DNA of 64,000 bases from Peptococcaceae bacterium BICA1-7 (GTDB taxonomy: Bacteria > Bacillota > Desulfotomaculia > Desulfotomaculales > Desulfocucumaceae). The DNA lies in the NCBI GenBank assembly GCA_000802095.1, contig JUEB01000033.1, positions 124,001 to 188,000 of the forward strand, written 5' to 3'. The position numbers and the translations under genes were made by a program. Below, piece after piece: positions 2,002 through 47,521 of the stretch (positions within the stretch are counted from its first letter, which is position 1; each line of letters starts with the position of its first letter). Under the pieces are notes generated by a model, which did not search any database, was not told where the DNA came from, and saw nothing but the letters and a program-made list of their open reading frames with translations.

Positions 2002-3114
2002 ATGGAAAATAGTGCATCGTCTAAATGGGTTAATGCTATACCGGGTATTTTGTTTATGTTTTTTATTGCCCTGCTGGCCATGGGCACTAAGTCATTAGGC
2101 ATCGGAAGTTGGACCGGAATCGAAGGCATAATAAAGGATAATTCTAAATTTCTTGGTAGTGTCCTAAAAATAAATCATGTTATAATCGTTATATTAATCG
2201 GTATGTTAATTAGAAACACCATAGGTATACCATCATGGGCGGAAGTGGGTGTGAAGACCTCCCGTCTCTTCATCAAAATGGGTGTTATTCTTCTGGGCAC
2301 ATTATATAGTCTGGCAGAGCTGGCTAAACTGGGAGCGACATCTATATCCCTTATTGCAGTCTTTATGTTTGGCACCATTCTATTCACCATGTGGATGGGC
2401 AAGAGGCTTGGCATGCATTCCGGTTCTTCAGCCTGTCTTGCTGCAGGTATAGGTGTTTGCGGTGTATCAGCCATTGTGGCTGTGGCCCCCTCGGTTAAAG
2501 CAAAGGGTGAGGATATTGCCTATTCCATTGCTACTATCTTAAGCTTCGGGGTAGTATGCCTGTTTACTTTTCCAATTCTGGGACATTTACTCGGCCTTAC
2601 TCCAGAGCAGTTCGGCGCCTGGGCTGGAACAGGTATCCTTAACTCCGGTCAGGTGCTTGCCGCTGCGCTGGCCTTTGACCCCGGCACTGTAAATAATCCG
2701 TCTGTAAGTTTGAAAGTAGGAGAAATATTCAACCTTACCCGGGTGGTATTTTTGCCACTGGTGGTGGTGGTTATTACTCTTCTTTATACTAGAATGTCCA
2801 CAGCTGAAGAAGGCGCAGTGGTAGCAAATAACAATTTCTTCTCAAAATTCCCCATGTTTGTACTGGGCTTTTTGCTTACTGTGACACTGACTTCCTTTGG
2901 CGCTTTTGGACCTACCAATCCTGTTTCGGAAGAACTGAAAGTCTTCAGAAACCTGTATAGCTGGTTTTTCTCCATCGGTCTGACAGGCCTTGGCCTGCAA
3001 ATATCTTTTGCGGAGATGAGAAAAGCTGGAGGAGCGCCACTTATTGTTGGCTCAACCGCAGGCATGATCAAGGCTGTTGGCTCACTGATCGTAGTAATGT
3101 TATTAATGGATTAA
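2002..3114 (+). CDS. YeiH/UPF0324 family membrane protein (putative sulfate-type anion exporter), copy 1
   Basis: The 370-residue polytopic membrane protein has about ten hydrophobic helices and the conserved family segments GMLIRNTIGIPSWAEVG, CGVSAIVAVAP, FGAWAGTGILNSGQV and SWFFSIGLTGLGLQIS. The family (Cons_hypoth698, YeiH) is annotated as putative sulfate exporters, but substrates are largely unproven. The ATG follows a good GGAGGGG site. A second, clearly paralogous copy lies at 4166, and each copy is followed by a one-helix microprotein. A UspA-like gene closes this first unit. The gene is probably expressed from the structured leader at 1834-1971. Confidence 0.85.
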   Translation: MENSASSKWVNAIPGILFMFFIALLAMGTKSLGIGSWTGIEGIIKDNSKFLGSVLKINHVIIVILIGMLIRNTIGIPSWAEVGVKTSRLFIKMGVILLGTLYSLAELAKLGATSISLIAVFMFGTILFTMWMGKRLGMHSGSSACLAAGIGVCGVSAIVAVAPSVKAKGEDIAYSIATILSFGVVCLFTFPILGHLLGLTPEQFGAWAGTGILNSGQVLAAALAFDPGTVNNPSVSLKVGEIFNLTRVVFLPLVVVVITLLYTRMSTAEEGAVVANNNFFSKFPMFVLGFLLTVTLTSFGAFGPTNPVSEELKVFRNLYSWFFSIGLTGLGLQISFAEMRKAGGAPLIVGSTAGMIKAVGSLIVVMLLMD

Positions 3115-3158
3115 TACTAACCGCCTCAAATACAAATGCTAAGGGAGGTTAACCGTAA

Positions 3159-3293
3159 ATGGCCGATACAGGTTTACAAAAAGAAAAAAAGGAAGAGCGT
3201 CAGCTTTCCTTGTTCACCAACGAACGTCACGAGGATCTAGCCGCCATTATTGGCGCCGGAGTGTTGATGCTTCTAACAGTAATATTCATTTAA
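3159..3293 (+). CDS. 44-residue single-helix membrane protein, companion of YeiH copy 1
   Basis: A short frame starts at ATG 3159 behind AAGGGAGG, 44 bases after the yeiH stop. The product has a charged N-terminus rich in Lys and Glu, the segment LSLFTNERHEDLAAIIG, and one C-terminal hydrophobic helix. Its counterpart at 5316 occupies the same place after YeiH copy 2 and has a matching LF-x-x-ER-x-ED pattern before its helix. Duplication in parallel with the transporter argues that it is a real gene, possibly a small subunit or regulator of the transporter. I do not recognise a named family. Confidence 0.65.
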   Translation: MADTGLQKEKKEERQLSLFTNERHEDLAAIIGAGVLMLLTVIFI

Positions 3294-3326
3294 ATTTTGC
3301 GAGAGTCTTTAGAGTGAGGAGATTTT

Positions 3327-3788
3327 ATGAAAGGTCAGATACTTTTTATAACAGATGGTTCCCCTTCGGCTGAAGAGGCTGGAAAGATAGCCATAGAGAT
3401 GGCTCTGTCAGCGAATATCCCCTTAAAAGCAGTTTTCATTTTTGATGAGGGCTGGAAGCATTTGCTGGGAGATGAGTGGATAAATACATCTTCAACGCGT
3501 ATGACTTTTTTTCAATGGTATGAAGATGGGCTAATGAAGCACTCTGATGACATTCTTGGGGGGTTTCACCAAAAAGCGCTGGACCGGGGAGTTAATATTG
3601 AAGTTGAGGTAAAGATTGGCAAAACAGAAAAAGTGATGGCTGATTTGACCAATGCAGACAATACTATTTTACTGTTTTTGCCAAATCCGCATTCTACCGC
3701 TCCGGCGGCTGCAGCCGGCCTGAGGTATAGTTTAAACTCTCTTTCCAAAAAGATAAAGTGCCCTATTTATGTGGGTCCGAGGCTATAG
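3327..3788 (+). CDS. Universal stress protein (UspA-like) family
   Basis: The 153-residue protein has the Usp-type alternating alpha/beta layout. It opens with ILFITDGSPSAEEAGKIAIEMA, followed by LKAVFIF at strand 2, and ends with KIKCPIYVGP. The nucleotide-binding G-2x-G-9x-G motif of ATP-binding Usp proteins is not clear, so it is more likely of the non-ATP-binding kind. ATG 3327 follows GTGAGGAG. It is the third gene of the unit yeiH-microprotein-usp and is followed by a terminator. UspA-like domains often regulate membrane transporters, so a role tied to YeiH is plausible but inferred. Confidence 0.7.
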   Translation: MKGQILFITDGSPSAEEAGKIAIEMALSANIPLKAVFIFDEGWKHLLGDEWINTSSTRMTFFQWYEDGLMKHSDDILGGFHQKALDRGVNIEVEVKIGKTEKVMADLTNADNTILLFLPNPHSTAPAAAAGLRYSLNSLSKKIKCPIYVGPRL

Positions 3789-3832
3789 CCGGAATTAATA
3801 AAATTCTCCTGCACTCAACATGATAGACATAT

Positions 3833-3855
3833 AACCGCCATTTGGCGGTTTTTTT
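3833..3855 (+). terminator. Intrinsic terminator after usp gene
   Basis: AACCGCC (3833-3839), a four-base ATTT loop, GGCGGTT (3844-3850) and a T-run form a standard rho-independent terminator 45 bases after the usp stop codon. Confidence 0.85.
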
Positions 3856-3995
3856 CTTTATATGTCCAGTTTGTTTGGAACCCTTAATAAGCTTTTAATT
3901 AGAAAATACGGTATAAAACCAATTAGCGGGATAATAACCAGGTGAATGAGCAGTGATAGTCTAAGTGGGAATAAACTGTAATTAGTGGCGAGGCT

Positions 3996-4018
3996 ATAGA
4001 GTTATAATATAATTCTAT
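3996..4018. promoter_or_regulatory. Near-perfect palindrome upstream of second YeiH gene
   Basis: ATAGAGTTATA, one centre base, then TATAATTCTAT gives a palindrome with one mismatch in eleven pairs, about 150 bases before the start of YeiH copy 2. It contains TATAAT and so could be a repressor site on a promoter. The rest of 3856-4165 shows no gene and no leader like the one before copy 1. Confidence 0.35.
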
Positions 4019-4165
4019 CTGTAATGCCCATATCATAGAAACATAGCTTAGACATAGGTATTGCCGATAACAAAAGGGCCTGCATAAAAAGATTAATTAC
4101 GAAGGCACAATATGACAAATAGTGATATAATATTTGCGAATACTTTACGGACAGGCCGGGTGAAT

Positions 4166-5296
4166 ATGGAATACAGGAAGGCCCCATTATATATCAGGGT
4201 TGTTCCCGGAATTGTTTTAATGCTTTCCATTGCCGTTTTGACACGGGGCGGGGCGGATTTAGGGTTTCCTCAGTGGCAGGGGATAGAGTTATATATAAAT
4301 ACCAATGAGTATATAAATAAAAGCATTATAGAAATATTCCATTTAAATTACATTGTTCTTTCCATAATTGCCGGAATGCTAATTGGTAATTCAATAGGCA
4401 TTCCATCCTGGGCAGCGGATGGAGTGAAAACTTCCCGGGTTTTCATAAAGCTGGGAGTAGTGCTCCTGGGCTCTCTTTACAGTGTTTCTGATATAGCTCT
4501 GCTGGGAAGCGGAGCAATCATGCTGGTATTGTCTTTTGTGTCCGTTACCCTGCTGTTTACTATGTGGCTGGGTAAAAAGTCAGGAATGGAATCCACCTCC
4601 GCAGCAGTTCTTTCGGCAGGAGTGGCAGTCTGCGGGGTTTCGGCAATAGTGGCCACCGCTCCGGCTGTAAGGGCAAAAACAACCGATGTTGTTTACTCAA
4701 TTGCCACCATTCTTTCTTTTGGACTTGCATCACTTTTCATTTTCCCGATCATAGGGACTCTGGCGGGGCTCACTCCTCACCAGTTCGGAGCATGGGCCGG
4801 GACAGGGATTCTCAATTCCGGACAGGTTCTGGCAGTCTGCCTGTCCTTTGACCCGGGCACAGCCAGCCACCCTTCACTGAGCCTCAAAACAGGCGAGATC
4901 TACAACCTTGTGCGGGTAATCTTCCTTCCTTTCGTCGTTCTCGCACTGGCGGTTTATACAAGCCGGATGGCAAAGCTGCCCGAAGATGAAATCAATATAA
5001 ATACCGGCCTCTGGTCCAAATTTCCTTTATTTGTCGGAGGCTTTATGGTTATGGCTTTTATTACATCTTTCGGGGTGCTTGGACAAACATCTCCACCCTC
5101 GGAAGAGATTATACTTATACGGAAATTATACAGCTGGTTTTTCGCCATTGGCCTTACCGGCCTCGGCATGCAGATTTCTTTTACCGAGCTGCGCAAAGCG
5201 GGGGGGAGGCCCCTGATGGTTGGTACCACAGCAGCCCTTTTAAAGGCAATAGCTGCCCTGATATTAGTATTATGGGCAATTCCCGAACAACCATAA
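4166..5296 (+). CDS. YeiH/UPF0324 family membrane protein, copy 2
   Basis: The 376-residue paralog of the protein at 2002 shares the same landmarks: GMLIGNSIGIPSWAADGVK, CGVSAIVATAPAVRAK, FGAWAGTGILNSGQV and SWFFAIGLTGLGMQIS. The frame is open from ATG 4112, but ATG 4166 is chosen because the products then align from residue 1 (MEYRKAPLYIRVVPGI against MENSASSKWVNAIPGI). The upstream 18 residues have no counterpart and no better ribosome site. It is followed after 19 bases by a microprotein gene. The two copies differ throughout, so the duplication is old or the copies have different substrates. Confidence 0.85.
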   Translation: MEYRKAPLYIRVVPGIVLMLSIAVLTRGGADLGFPQWQGIELYINTNEYINKSIIEIFHLNYIVLSIIAGMLIGNSIGIPSWAADGVKTSRVFIKLGVVLLGSLYSVSDIALLGSGAIMLVLSFVSVTLLFTMWLGKKSGMESTSAAVLSAGVAVCGVSAIVATAPAVRAKTTDVVYSIATILSFGLASLFIFPIIGTLAGLTPHQFGAWAGTGILNSGQVLAVCLSFDPGTASHPSLSLKTGEIYNLVRVIFLPFVVLALAVYTSRMAKLPEDEININTGLWSKFPLFVGGFMVMAFITSFGVLGQTSPPSEEIILIRKLYSWFFAIGLTGLGMQISFTELRKAGGRPLMVGTTAALLKAIAALILVLWAIPEQP

Positions 5297-5315
5297 TTAA
5301 CGGGAGGACTGTCAG

Positions 5316-5462
5316 ATGTCGGAAGATACTTACGGAAGAGAAAGTGATCAAAATGGCGGAGATCGCAACCATTTCATGCTTTTTGCCACTGAAAGGGCAG
5401 AGGATTATGTGGTACTGTCTCTGGCCCTTATGATACTGATAGTTATATTGGTGTTCTACTAA
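5316..5462 (+). CDS. 48-residue single-helix membrane protein, companion of YeiH copy 2
   Basis: ATG 5316 follows GGGAGGACTGTCAG and the frame closes at TAA 5460-5462. The product has a polar N-terminus, the segment FMLFATERAEDYVVLS, and a strongly hydrophobic C-terminal helix. The layout and the LF-x-x-ER-x-ED signature match the 44-residue protein after YeiH copy 1, although the DNA sequences have diverged. This suggests selection at protein level. Function is unknown; a transporter accessory subunit is the simplest reading. Confidence 0.65.
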   Translation: MSEDTYGRESDQNGGDRNHFMLFATERAEDYVVLSLALMILIVILVFY

Positions 5463-39008: not shown

Positions 39009-40158
39009 GTGCGCCCGGCATGGGCGCAGTCTAACGGGTGAAAATCCCGAACACGCCCGGTAGTGGGAAGTGTATAGCCAAGGCCAAACGCGTCCATTGT
39101 GAGGTGGAGTGTGAAGGAAGGCGGCGGCAAATCTCTGGCCTGACGAACAGAAACTGCATCAGGCACAAATTGAGGATAAGGCTGCTATACAAGTCGAAGT
39201 CCAATAACTACACGGAATCAGTTTGTGTAAATGCGGCAGGTAGATGGAGAGAAAGACTGCGCTCTTACCCGGGGAGGCCTCACGGACGGCAGAGGCGTAT
39301 TTGCCGAAACCGGTTGAAACAAAATTTATCGTGAGGAGTCAGATGAAGCCGTATTAGCAGTACAGTCGACGGTACTGTGAAGGGCGGAACCCTTGGAGGT
39401 GATAGTAAATGAATGTTACCAGGAATCTGGACAATAACAGAAAACACTGTGACAACAGCGGCTGGCCGCAAAGGGATAGTGCGGAACACAAAGAGTATGC
39501 GGGAGCGCTTACTGATTCAGGGATAACTGAAAACAACATCACCAATGCCGACAGACCCGGGGGTGGACTGCTGGAGGAAATCCTTGCCCCAAGTAATCTT
39601 AACCAAGCATACAAACGGGTTAAGAAGAACAAAGGAGCAGGCGGAGTCGATGGGATGCAAGTGGAAGATCTTCTGCAATATCTCAAAGACAACGGGGAGG
39701 AAATCCGGCAGACCATCAAGGACGGAAAATACCGTCCTCAACCCGTACTGCGGGTAGAGATACCCAAAGAAGACGGGAAGAAAAAGAGAAAGCTGGGAAT
39801 ACCAACAGCCGTAGACCGAGTCATACAGCAGGCAATAGCGCAGGTTTTGACGCCAATCTATGAGCCACAGTTCTCGAACAACAGCTACGGATTCCGGCCA
39901 GGAAGAAGCACGCATGATGCTCTCAAAGCGTGTCAGAAGAATATCCGCGACGGGTACAAGTACGTAGTGGATATGGACTTGGAAAAGTTCTTTGACACAG
40001 TGAACCAAAGCAAGCTGATAGAGGTACTGTCACGGAGTATTAAGGACGGGAGAGTCATATCCCTCATCCATAAATATCTCCGGGCAGGAGTTATCACACG
40101 CGTCCGCGTCGGCAGATTCGAGGAAACGGAAATAGGAGTGCCACAAGGGGGACCCCTG
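39009..40158 (+). mobile_element. Group II intron, 3' truncated
   Basis: The intron 5' end is GTGCGCCCGGCATGGGCGCA at 39009, followed by domain I-like sequence (AACGGGTGAAAATCCCGAAC) and an intron-encoded reverse transcriptase from 39409. Homology ends at ~40158 inside RT motif 4. The rest of the RT, the maturase and ribozyme domains V and VI are missing, so it cannot splice or move alone. It sits ten bases after a terminator hairpin, the insertion habit of bacterial class C introns, though I cannot assign the class with certainty. Confidence 0.85.
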
Positions 40159-40251
40159 AAATTTGTGGTGCCGGTTGTTGAAATGTTGAAATTCTCTTCA
40201 TTGATTTGGGAATCTTCTGATACCTGCTATCTAAGCTGTTTAACTGTTTAA
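39409..40251 (+). pseudogene. ltrA: Truncated group II intron reverse transcriptase/maturase
   Basis: The N-terminal part carries the RT signature blocks: NLNQAYKRVKKNKGAGGVDG (RT0), KYRPQPVLRVEIPKEDGKKK (RT1), SNNSYGFRPGRSTHDALKAC (RT2), YVVDMDLEKFFDTVNQSKL (RT3, with the first catalytic Asp) and GVPQGGPL (RT4). After that the frame runs into unrelated sequence (KFVVPVVEMLKF, from the 28-base repeat) for about 30 codons. The YADD box, maturase domain and endonuclease domain are absent, so it is inactive. Confidence 0.88.
40169..40196 (+). repeat. 28-base direct repeat, right copy
   Basis: Identical to 38884-38911 and placed 11 bases after the breakpoint of the group II intron. Downstream, TTCGGTACCGGGTACCGAA (about 40313-40331) is a palindrome of unknown role. 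No gene is seen in 40252-40414. Confidence 0.75.
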
Positions 40252-44928: not shown

Positions 44929-46206
44929 TTATATTATTCCAAAGTACTCCGCGGCAATCCGGGCGGCGCAGCCGTCACCGCATACAGCGCACTTGCCGTC
45001 ACCGCCGGGAGGGTGATTTTCCCATACCCGGGGGTCCACCGAGGAGGCTGCCTGGGCGGCTGCATTACCGGAAACCCTGGCCCGGGCCATTTTCATGTCT
45101 TTTTCCCAGGCCACACGGCTTCCCCTGGCCAGGTCGGCGGCATGGGCGGCAATGCGGGCGGCCATGACCCCGTCTCTTACATCATCACTGGTGGGAAGCC
45201 CCAGGTGCTCGGCCGGGGTGACGTAGCACAGGAAGTCCGCCCCTGCTGCCCCGGCGATGGCCCCCCCGATGGCCGAGGTGATGTGGTCGTACCCGGGGGC
45301 CACGTCGGTGGCCAGTGTGCCCAGTATAAAGTAGGGGGCCCCGTCACAGAGCCTTTTCTGTAAAAGCATGGTGGACTCTACGTGGTGCATGGGGACGTGG
45401 CCCGGCCCCTCCACCATCACCTGGACCCCGGCGGCGTGGGCTCTGGCCACAAGCTCACCGGCCACGATAAGGCCCTGGAGCTGGGCGCCGTCCAGAGAGT
45501 CGGCGGTGGACCCGGGCCGGATGGCGTCCCCCAGGCTTAAGGTGACATCATATTTTTTAAGTATCTCCAGAAGCCGGTCAAACTGCTGGTACAGGGGGTT
45601 TTCCCTGTTGTTGTGCAGCATCCAGCCGGTAAGAAAGGCCCCGCCCCGGCTGACCACGTCGGTAACCCTGCCCCTGGCCTGAAGGCGCTTGATTACATCA
45701 AAGTTCAGGGCACAGTGGATGGCCATGAAGTCCACACCCCCGGCGGCCTGTTTTTCTATGGCGTCAAACATATCCTGGCCGGTCATGCTGACCATGGCCC
45801 CGCGCTTTTCCAGGGCGGTTACGGCGGCCTGGTAGATGGGTACGCTGCCCACCGGCACACCTGCCCTGGCCAGGGTCTGCCTCCTCATGCCGTCTATGTC
45901 CCCTCCGGTGCTCAGGTCCATCACCGAATCGCACCCTGCGGCCACGGCCACGGCCAGCTTTTTTTCCTCGTCCAGGATAAGGTCCCGGTCGCTGGAGGTG
46001 CCTATCAGCGCGTTTACCTTTATGCGCAGCCCCTCGCCTATGCCGCAAAGGCTTTTAATCTCCCGCCCCCTGTTTTTGGGTATTACTATTTTCCCCGAGG
46101 CCACCCCGGCCCTTATAAATTCCGGCGTCAGCCCCTCTGTCTGGGCCACGGCCTCCATTTCCGCGGTAATCCTGCCCGCCCGGGCCTCCAGTACCTGCGT
46201 CATCAT
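44929..46206 (-). CDS. bzaB: ThiC paralog, probable 5-hydroxybenzimidazole synthase subunit BzaB
   Basis: The ~425-residue radical SAM enzyme of the ThiC family shows MDLSTGGDIDGMRRQTLARA, FMAIHCALNFDVIKRLQARG, SLGDAIRPGSTADSLDGAQL and VMVEGPGHVPMHHVESTMLL. The C-terminal cluster motif CAVCGDGC has CX2CX3C spacing, against CX2CX4C as I know it in ThiC. ThiC converts aminoimidazole ribotide; the Bza paralogs turn the same substrate into 5-hydroxybenzimidazole, the lower-ligand precursor of cobamides. It follows another ThiC paralog by 16 bases under a cobalamin riboswitch, the diagnostic bza arrangement. The start at 46206 follows AAAGGGGG. Confidence 0.72.
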   Translation of the reverse strand: MMTQVLEARAGRITAEMEAVAQTEGLTPEFIRAGVASGKIVIPKNRGREIKSLCGIGEGLRIKVNALIGTSSDRDLILDEEKKLAVAVAAGCDSVMDLSTGGDIDGMRRQTLARAGVPVGSVPIYQAAVTALEKRGAMVSMTGQDMFDAIEKQAAGGVDFMAIHCALNFDVIKRLQARGRVTDVVSRGGAFLTGWMLHNNRENPLYQQFDRLLEILKKYDVTLSLGDAIRPGSTADSLDGAQLQGLIVAGELVARAHAAGVQVMVEGPGHVPMHHVESTMLLQKRLCDGAPYFILGTLATDVAPGYDHITSAIGGAIAGAAGADFLCYVTPAEHLGLPTSDDVRDGVMAARIAAHAADLARGSRVAWEKDMKMARARVSGNAAAQAASSVDPRVWENHPPGGDGKCAVCGDGCAARIAAEYFGII

Positions 46207-46222
46207 AAATTCCCCCTTTCTA

Positions 46223-47521
46223 TCAGCATGTCTGCCGGGCAGTGCCCAGGTATTCCGCAACAACCTTCATGGCGCAGTATTTGCCGCACATGGCGCAGCC
46301 CTCGGAGTTATCCCCGCTGCGGTCCCTCTTTATGCAGGCCGCCCTCTCCGGGTCGATGGACAGGGCTATCTGTCTGTCCCAGTCCAGCACCTTTCTGGCC
46401 TGGGAGAGCTCCAGGTCCCACCGGGCAGCCCCGGGCAGCCCCCTGGCCAGGTCTCCGGCGTGGGCGGCTATGCGGGAGGCGATAACCCCCTCCCGGACCT
46501 GCTCTGCGCTGGGAAGACCCAGGTGCTCCGGGGCGGTAACATAGCATAGGAATTGGGCTCCGGCCCAGGAGCATACCGCTCCGCCTATGGCTGCGCTGAT
46601 GTGGTCGTAGCCCGCCGCTATGTCGGTGACCACCGGGCCAAATACGAAGTAAGGGGCCCCGCCGCAGAGGCTTTTCTGCAGTGTCACCGTGGCCCTGAGG
46701 TGATTTAAGGGGACGTGGCCCGGCCCCTTGACCATTACCTGGACCCCGGCCTCCCTGGCCCTTCTCACCAGCTCTCCCAGCACCACCAGCTCCTGCACCT
46801 GGGGGCCGTCCAGTGAGTCGGCCAGGCACCCGGGCCTCATGCCGTCGGCCAGGCTGACGGTGACATCATATTTTCGGGCTATCTCCAACACCCGGTCATA
46901 GTTGGTGTAAAGAGGGTTTTCAGACTGGTTGTAGATCATCCAGCCGATCAGGTGGGACCCTCCGTAGCTCACCAGGGGGTCCACCCGATTATCCTTTTTG
47001 GCCCTCTCCACTATATCCATGGTGGTGCCGCAGTGCAGGGCCAGGAAGTCCACCCCGTCGGCGGCCTGCCTTTCCATAACGCTGAAAAGCTCTTCAACCT
47101 TCATCCGGGCGGAGGACCGGTATTTTTCTCCGGCCTCGGCCAGGGCCTGGTACAGCGGCAGGGTGCCCACCGGCCCTGTAAACATGGCCAGGGCCTCCCG
47201 CCGCATGGTGTCTATGTCTCCGCTTACGCTTAAGTCCATAATGGCGTCGGTGCCTGCCCCTGAGGCCGCCTTGATTTTTGACTTTTCCACCGGGATGGAG
47301 GCATCCCTGCCATACAGCCCAACGCTGGCGCTTACCTTGGTTCTGAGGCCGGAGCCTATTCCCGTGGGCTTTACCCCGGACCGCGCAGTGCTTCGGGGAA
47401 TAACCACCGTTCCCCCGGCCACTCCATCCAGTATGAAGTCCAAAGACACACCCTCAGCCAGGGCCACCTCCTCCATCTCACTGGTGACTTCTCCCCGCCG
47501 GGCTTTTTCCATAAGTGTCAT
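46223..47521 (-). CDS. bzaA: ThiC paralog, probable 5-hydroxybenzimidazole synthase subunit BzaA
   Basis: The 432-residue ThiC-family protein has MDLSVSGDIDTMRREALAMF, FLALHCGTTMDIVERAKKDN, SLADGMRPGCLADSLDGPQV, VMVKGPGHVPLNHLRATVTL and the iron-sulfur motif CAMCGKYC (CX2CX3C). It is the first gene behind a cobalamin riboswitch and terminator, so its repression by cobamides rather than by thiamine supports BzaA over ThiC. No TPP riboswitch is present. BzaA and BzaB together suffice to make 5-hydroxybenzimidazole in anaerobes. The methylation genes (bzaC, D, E) and cobT are not in this window. Confidence 0.72.
   Translation of the reverse strand: MTLMEKARRGEVTSEMEEVALAEGVSLDFILDGVAGGTVVIPRSTARSGVKPTGIGSGLRTKVSASVGLYGRDASIPVEKSKIKAASGAGTDAIMDLSVSGDIDTMRREALAMFTGPVGTLPLYQALAEAGEKYRSSARMKVEELFSVMERQAADGVDFLALHCGTTMDIVERAKKDNRVDPLVSYGGSHLIGWMIYNQSENPLYTNYDRVLEIARKYDVTVSLADGMRPGCLADSLDGPQVQELVVLGELVRRAREAGVQVMVKGPGHVPLNHLRATVTLQKSLCGGAPYFVFGPVVTDIAAGYDHISAAIGGAVCSWAGAQFLCYVTAPEHLGLPSAEQVREGVIASRIAAHAGDLARGLPGAARWDLELSQARKVLDWDRQIALSIDPERAACIKRDRSGDNSEGCAMCGKYCAMKVVAEYLGTARQTC

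Follow-up and report, generated by a model that had tools for sequence, protein, structure and literature searches.

Our analysis leads us to conclude that short-form transporters of the PSE (YeiH) family have a real and hitherto undescribed one-helix partner, a conserved microprotein linked to the transporter gene, and that this partner is most likely a scaffold subunit. Members of the PSE family have either 9 helices or 11, the longer form carrying two additional ones at its N-terminus (PMC8396727), and our sequence comparisons make it probable that the microprotein serves the short form as a separate subunit of one helix and is the counterpart of the first extra helix of the long one (PSE_2, PF03601). 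The preliminary description of this DNA had proposed a small subunit or regulator of YeiH and knew of no partner of that kind. A full-text search of a collection of papers likewise returned no description of any YeiH partner. The proposal names the right kind of explanation, and of its two options a subunit is favored by the microprotein's resemblance to the helix that is fused in long PSE proteins.

The window, by which we mean the whole 64,000-nucleotide stretch that was analyzed, carries two transporter-microprotein units on its plus strand. YeiH1 (2002-3114) is a 370-residue protein of the short form, lacking the N-terminal pair of extra helices; YeiH2 (4112-5296) has 394 residues as listed, with a true start that is probably near 4166, judging from alignment with relatives. 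The two proteins are 57% identical and match PF03601 at 1e-55 (189.4 bits) and 4e-54 (184.2 bits), respectively, against a cut-off of 24.5. Their scores against TIGR00698 ("YeiH family putative sulfate export transporter"), 118.3 and 117.3 bits, lie below its cut-off of 232.6 and on this comparison they belong to the same family but a different subfamily. Both begin at the core, lacking the two extra helices that the long PSE_2 form has in the same chain, and the first of these helices appears to be encoded apart from them. As the preliminary description reported, each transporter gene is followed by a small open reading frame, of 44 or 48 codons. Each of these frames has its own Shine-Dalgarno sequence. 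Microprotein 1 (3159-3293; 44 residues, MADTGLQKEKKEERQLSLFTNERHEDLAAIIGAGVLMLLTVIFI) and microprotein 2 (5316-5462; 48 residues, MSEDTYGRESDQNGGDRNHFMLFATERAEDYVVLSLALMILIVILVFY) have a single C-terminal hydrophobic helix preceded by the motifs LSLFTNERHEDL and LFATERAEDYVVLSLAL, respectively, that is, by LFTNERHED and LFATERAED in the pattern LFxxERxED. A GGGAGG sequence lies 8-10 bases before each ATG, at about 3143-3148 and 5302-5307. Microprotein 1 is followed by a gene for a 153-residue Usp-like protein (3327-3788), absent from the preliminary description, and the unit ends at a terminator-like hairpin with a T-run (3833-3850) recognized by consensus match only. The Usp-like protein itself scores below the PF00582 cut-off (E=0.0015); its relative at locus L161 scores above it (1.9e-7), and the gene order is kept in L005-L009 and L161. 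Usp-like genes also occur near some long PSE genes and near one of the more distant YeiH types described below (QD-type).

Neither microprotein has a significant match in Pfam-A, LrgA and other small membrane subunits included, and neither comes near any cut-off among the small transporter accessory proteins of NCBIfam. Pairwise BLASTP gave no alignment between the two, which are too diverged for it, and profiles were therefore used instead. The protein-level resemblance claimed for them in the preliminary description holds by family profile and by motif, but not by pairwise alignment. The family profile, of which both are rows, matches the host genome at exactly two places, and these are the two microproteins (E 6e-18 and 1e-15).

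The flanks of related YeiH loci carry the same small ORF, with the ED pair invariant in 27 aligned sequences. A homologue search of genome contigs had yielded just 5 loci and whole-genome searches were therefore used. A microprotein profile built from the 27 loci found 40 strong matches in 37 of the 113 genomes of the window's order; the rows of the profile are expected among these matches and about 15 are new. In the same 113 genomes, a YeiH profile found 41 close YeiH genes, one of them truncated at the edge of its contig. For 39 of the 40 that could be assessed, the microprotein comes directly downstream, mostly no more than 45 bases away and at the furthest about 240. At the single exception (G001; L019, L169), what comes after YeiH, close to a contig end, is a transposase-like ORF (IS110-like by eye), and the microprotein is found near the end of another contig; a mobile element and a contig break appear to separate the two. 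That copy aside, there was no strong microprotein match away from YeiH in the 113 genomes. Across 399 genomes of the phylum, strong matches to the profile were confined to the window's order. The same small ORF is present at four loci in Desulfosporosinus.

For most unsaturated pairs the dN/dS of the microprotein is 0.02-0.2, with one pair at 0.65, a pattern that on these sequences marks the ORF as being under purifying selection. Together with the retention of position, motif and helix in dozens of genomes, these values argue that the small ORFs are not chance features. The ORFs are short and mostly unannotated, as would be expected if they were untranslated and the DNA or RNA were the conserved entity. 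We regard this as extremely improbable: most dN/dS values are well below 1, Shine-Dalgarno sites are present, ED is invariant at the protein level although upstream lengths vary, and three of the haloarchaeal copies carry a protein annotation. Programmed read-through from YeiH into the microprotein was also considered and is not suggested by the data, since the two are in frame in 18 of about 44 pairs, near the one third expected by chance.

The preliminary description expected the small frame to recur next to yeiH in other genomes, and beyond the order and Desulfosporosinus it does so in more remote subfamilies of YeiH, in further families of the phylum and, diverged, in haloarchaea. In a YeiH subfamily 40-44% identical to those of the window, all 15 genomes have a downstream ORF of 30-58 residues with the consensus (K/R)xR(K/R)QD(Y/W)xVIxLG (QD-type). 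In another subfamily the ORF lies upstream, is about 58-71 residues long and includes SAERxEDI (3 of 3; ED-type). Thirteen YeiH genes from other families of the phylum, scoring about 145-190 bits against the window profile, have an upstream ORF of 30-41 residues, such as MKISTDWFAVILASVVALVVKFGIISNVPW, with the form DWWAV...VPW (DWW-type), which sometimes overlaps the YeiH start. Eight PSE genes on haloarchaeal plasmids were examined; seven are preceded by an ORF containing sequences such as LDTDWQSIIIGLLLLGAVVFFEIQIPW, and three of these ORFs are already listed as hypothetical proteins. LFxxERxED, presented earlier as the pattern of the microproteins, is indeed found in both copies of the window, but it belongs to one branch only and the wider core is an acidic/aromatic helix start, (E/Q)D(Y/W/L) or DWW. 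About 100 canonical short YeiH of the E. coli type had no microprotein detectable by these profiles, which also missed the archaeal type, and two LysR-linked YeiH loci that were checked (Enterococcus faecalis and Mycetohabitans) had none. Among 208 PSE ORFs the scores were bimodal, at least 47 bits beside YeiH and otherwise no more than about 20, and the intermediate scores of 10-20 bits came from the fused helices of long forms themselves.

It is this fused helix that points to a structural role. Long PSE proteins (about 440-630 residues) start with a helix of the form xED(Y/W)WA(I/V)WLG, and the window's own genome encodes one such protein, of 493 residues (L003). Five microprotein profiles (C1, C2, B, D and archaeal) were each compared by hhalign with 259 windows, 44 columns wide, taken from alignments of long, core and canonical PSE, and the N-terminal helix of the long form ranked first every time. 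With the C1 profile it scored 30.8, against 18.8 for the best window elsewhere; the corresponding values were 23.3 and 18.9 for C2, 21.4 and 16.3 for B, 26.1 and 14.3 for D, and 20.5 and 16.1 for the archaeal profile. A plain HMM search of flanks and N-termini also matched microprotein profiles to fused helices, with E-values down to 7e-5, and in three groups the gene order, microprotein then YeiH, mirrors the fused order. The match spans only about 20 columns of one helix, and matches this short can be convergent: unrelated one-helix proteins beside YeiH might share with the long-PSE helix an acidic/aromatic start suited to the membrane interface. Some pairs of microprotein profiles also match weakly (archaeal against C2, hhalign Prob 5.7; against B, none). 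The archaeal and DWW profiles match each other with Prob 94.7 (P 6e-8). We consider convergence improbable, given that five separately collected sets each pick the same helix out of 259 windows and that intermediate forms exist, RRQDWAVIFIG (L173) and SAERVEDIWALII (L036). Homology between the microproteins and the fused helix of long PSE proteins is well supported, though the alignments behind it are short.

Structure prediction was carried out on both arrangements. AlphaFold2 placed the N-terminal helix of a long form (residues 21-39) with confidence (pLDDT about 87-91, pTM 0.81). When YeiH and the microprotein of a relative of the same family were modelled as one read-through chain, the helix reached only moderate confidence (pLDDT about 64-77) and the linker was disordered. 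A sequence search found no PSE or YeiH relative with a solved structure, and fold searches of the PDB gave only weak matches, resembling the citrate symporter or NhaP (E >0.01, TM-scores about 0.1-0.4).

The history of the two units was assessed in a midpoint-rooted tree of 85 PSE proteins, sampled from types other than the DWW-type and archaeal YeiH. In it, the YeiH of the order that have a linked microprotein group together (96/87) as the sister of canonical YeiH, with the long forms placed elsewhere; three rows labelled DEDY sit among those long forms and represent long proteins cut short where their loci end. YeiH1 branches with Desulfosporosinus and BRH_c8a and YeiH2 lies on another branch with other relatives, and each microprotein of the window is of the type of its YeiH's branch. 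The preliminary description had read the locus as a duplicated module. Two YeiH-microprotein pairs are indeed present, but the tree rules out a recent tandem duplication, and on this phylogeny the two modules are ancient subfamilies. The upstream ED-type sits outside the downstream types at a weak node (82/26), a placement that, with a midpoint root, would fit fission of the N-terminal helix followed by a move downstream.

We envision the microprotein as a detached, or never fused, N-terminal scaffold helix that serves as a small accessory subunit. It would insert in the membrane with its charged end in the cytoplasm, and its (E/Q)D(Y/W) or DWW helix start would pack on the scaffold side of YeiH and stabilize, dimerize or tune the transporter. 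The closest parallel is PSE_2 itself, of the same transporter family, whose first extra N-terminal helix has the matching EDY/EDW start. In PSE_2, however, this helix lies in one chain with the transporter and is followed by a second, whereas here it is encoded by a separate gene and the second has no counterpart, a point against the scaffold reading, as is the lack of a detectable partner beside many canonical YeiH. LrgB and LysB, related transporters of the RHR fold, have separate small membrane partners that are also found fused (PMC8396727). The LrgA/LrgB and LysA/LysB systems (CPA/AT) resemble the present one in fold type and in a small scaffold partner that is separate or fused depending on lineage (PMC8396727), but LrgA has four helices and LysA three, against one in the YeiH partner, and no sequence relation was seen.

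It is also conceivable that the microprotein is a regulator outside the transporter fold. KdpF, MetS, AcrZ and MgtS are very small membrane proteins that act on a transporter or are encoded alongside one; these proteins belong with other transporter families, and no such family was found in the NCBIfam and Pfam scans of the microproteins. A regulator in the manner of AcrZ or MgtS would modulate the activity or turnover of YeiH or tether the Usp-like protein, and its likeness to the fused helix would stem from docking at a common site. Its small size, its place after YeiH, its variable N-terminal tail and the Usp-like gene that comes next in YeiH1-type and QD-type units are all in keeping with such a role. 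We nonetheless judge it unlikely, though less so than convergence: YeiH2-type units have no Usp gene directly next to them and the constitutive fusion of the equivalent helix in long PSE proteins is better explained by a structural element. The match to that fused N-terminal helix is the reason that we favor a subunit.

By analogy with Salmonella YeiH, the main driver of sulfite resistance in that organism (PMC12880088), this putative two-component transporter may have sulfite or a related anion as its substrate. Salmonella YeiH is a YeiH/PSE transporter (PF03601 by established annotation), although it is of the TIGR00698 type, unlike the YeiH of the window. dsrA is present in 36 of the 37 genomes with a close-type microprotein and in 42 of the 76 others (Fisher 1e-6, not corrected for phylogeny), and the single genome without it is incomplete. 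Sulfate reducers could plausibly use these transporters to export or otherwise handle sulfite or a related anion.

PSE/YeiH transporters are widespread and relevant to sulfite tolerance. It is to our minds evenly balanced whether many bacterial and archaeal members work as two-subunit machines with a required single-helix scaffold of 30-70 residues, supplied from a gene on either side of the transporter gene or as an N-terminal fusion, and missed until now on account of that gene's shortness. If many lineages do encode one scaffold helix apart, attempts to express those members or solve their structures in the absence of the partner may fail or give misleading results, and a protein family found in both bacteria and archaea would be escaping annotation pipelines. 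It would also offer a clean case of a transporter helix in three arrangements, fused, upstream and downstream.

Other small membrane ORFs were noted near PSE genes. One kind, of 62 residues and containing NEEWYDLLPIEKKLIGWSLGIGVSLLVVFIV, follows the 493-residue long PSE of the window's genome (L003, G000:C24) and its relatives (L123, L125), and a similar 43-residue ORF lies upstream of a canonical YeiH in L186; this kind has no Pfam or NCBIfam match near cut-off. A one-helix ORF of about 85-107 residues, containing AGAFWYADVEKVGEAE, is conserved downstream of long PSE forms of about 590 residues (L151, L153, L154, L156, L167 and L168), which also have a long insert past the first helix. Elsewhere in the window, an ORF at 39409-40251 resembles a truncated group II intron reverse transcriptase, and the minus strand at 44929-47521 carries two adjacent ThiC-like paralogues, a tandem arrangement that can represent bzaA/bzaB of anaerobic benzimidazole synthesis.
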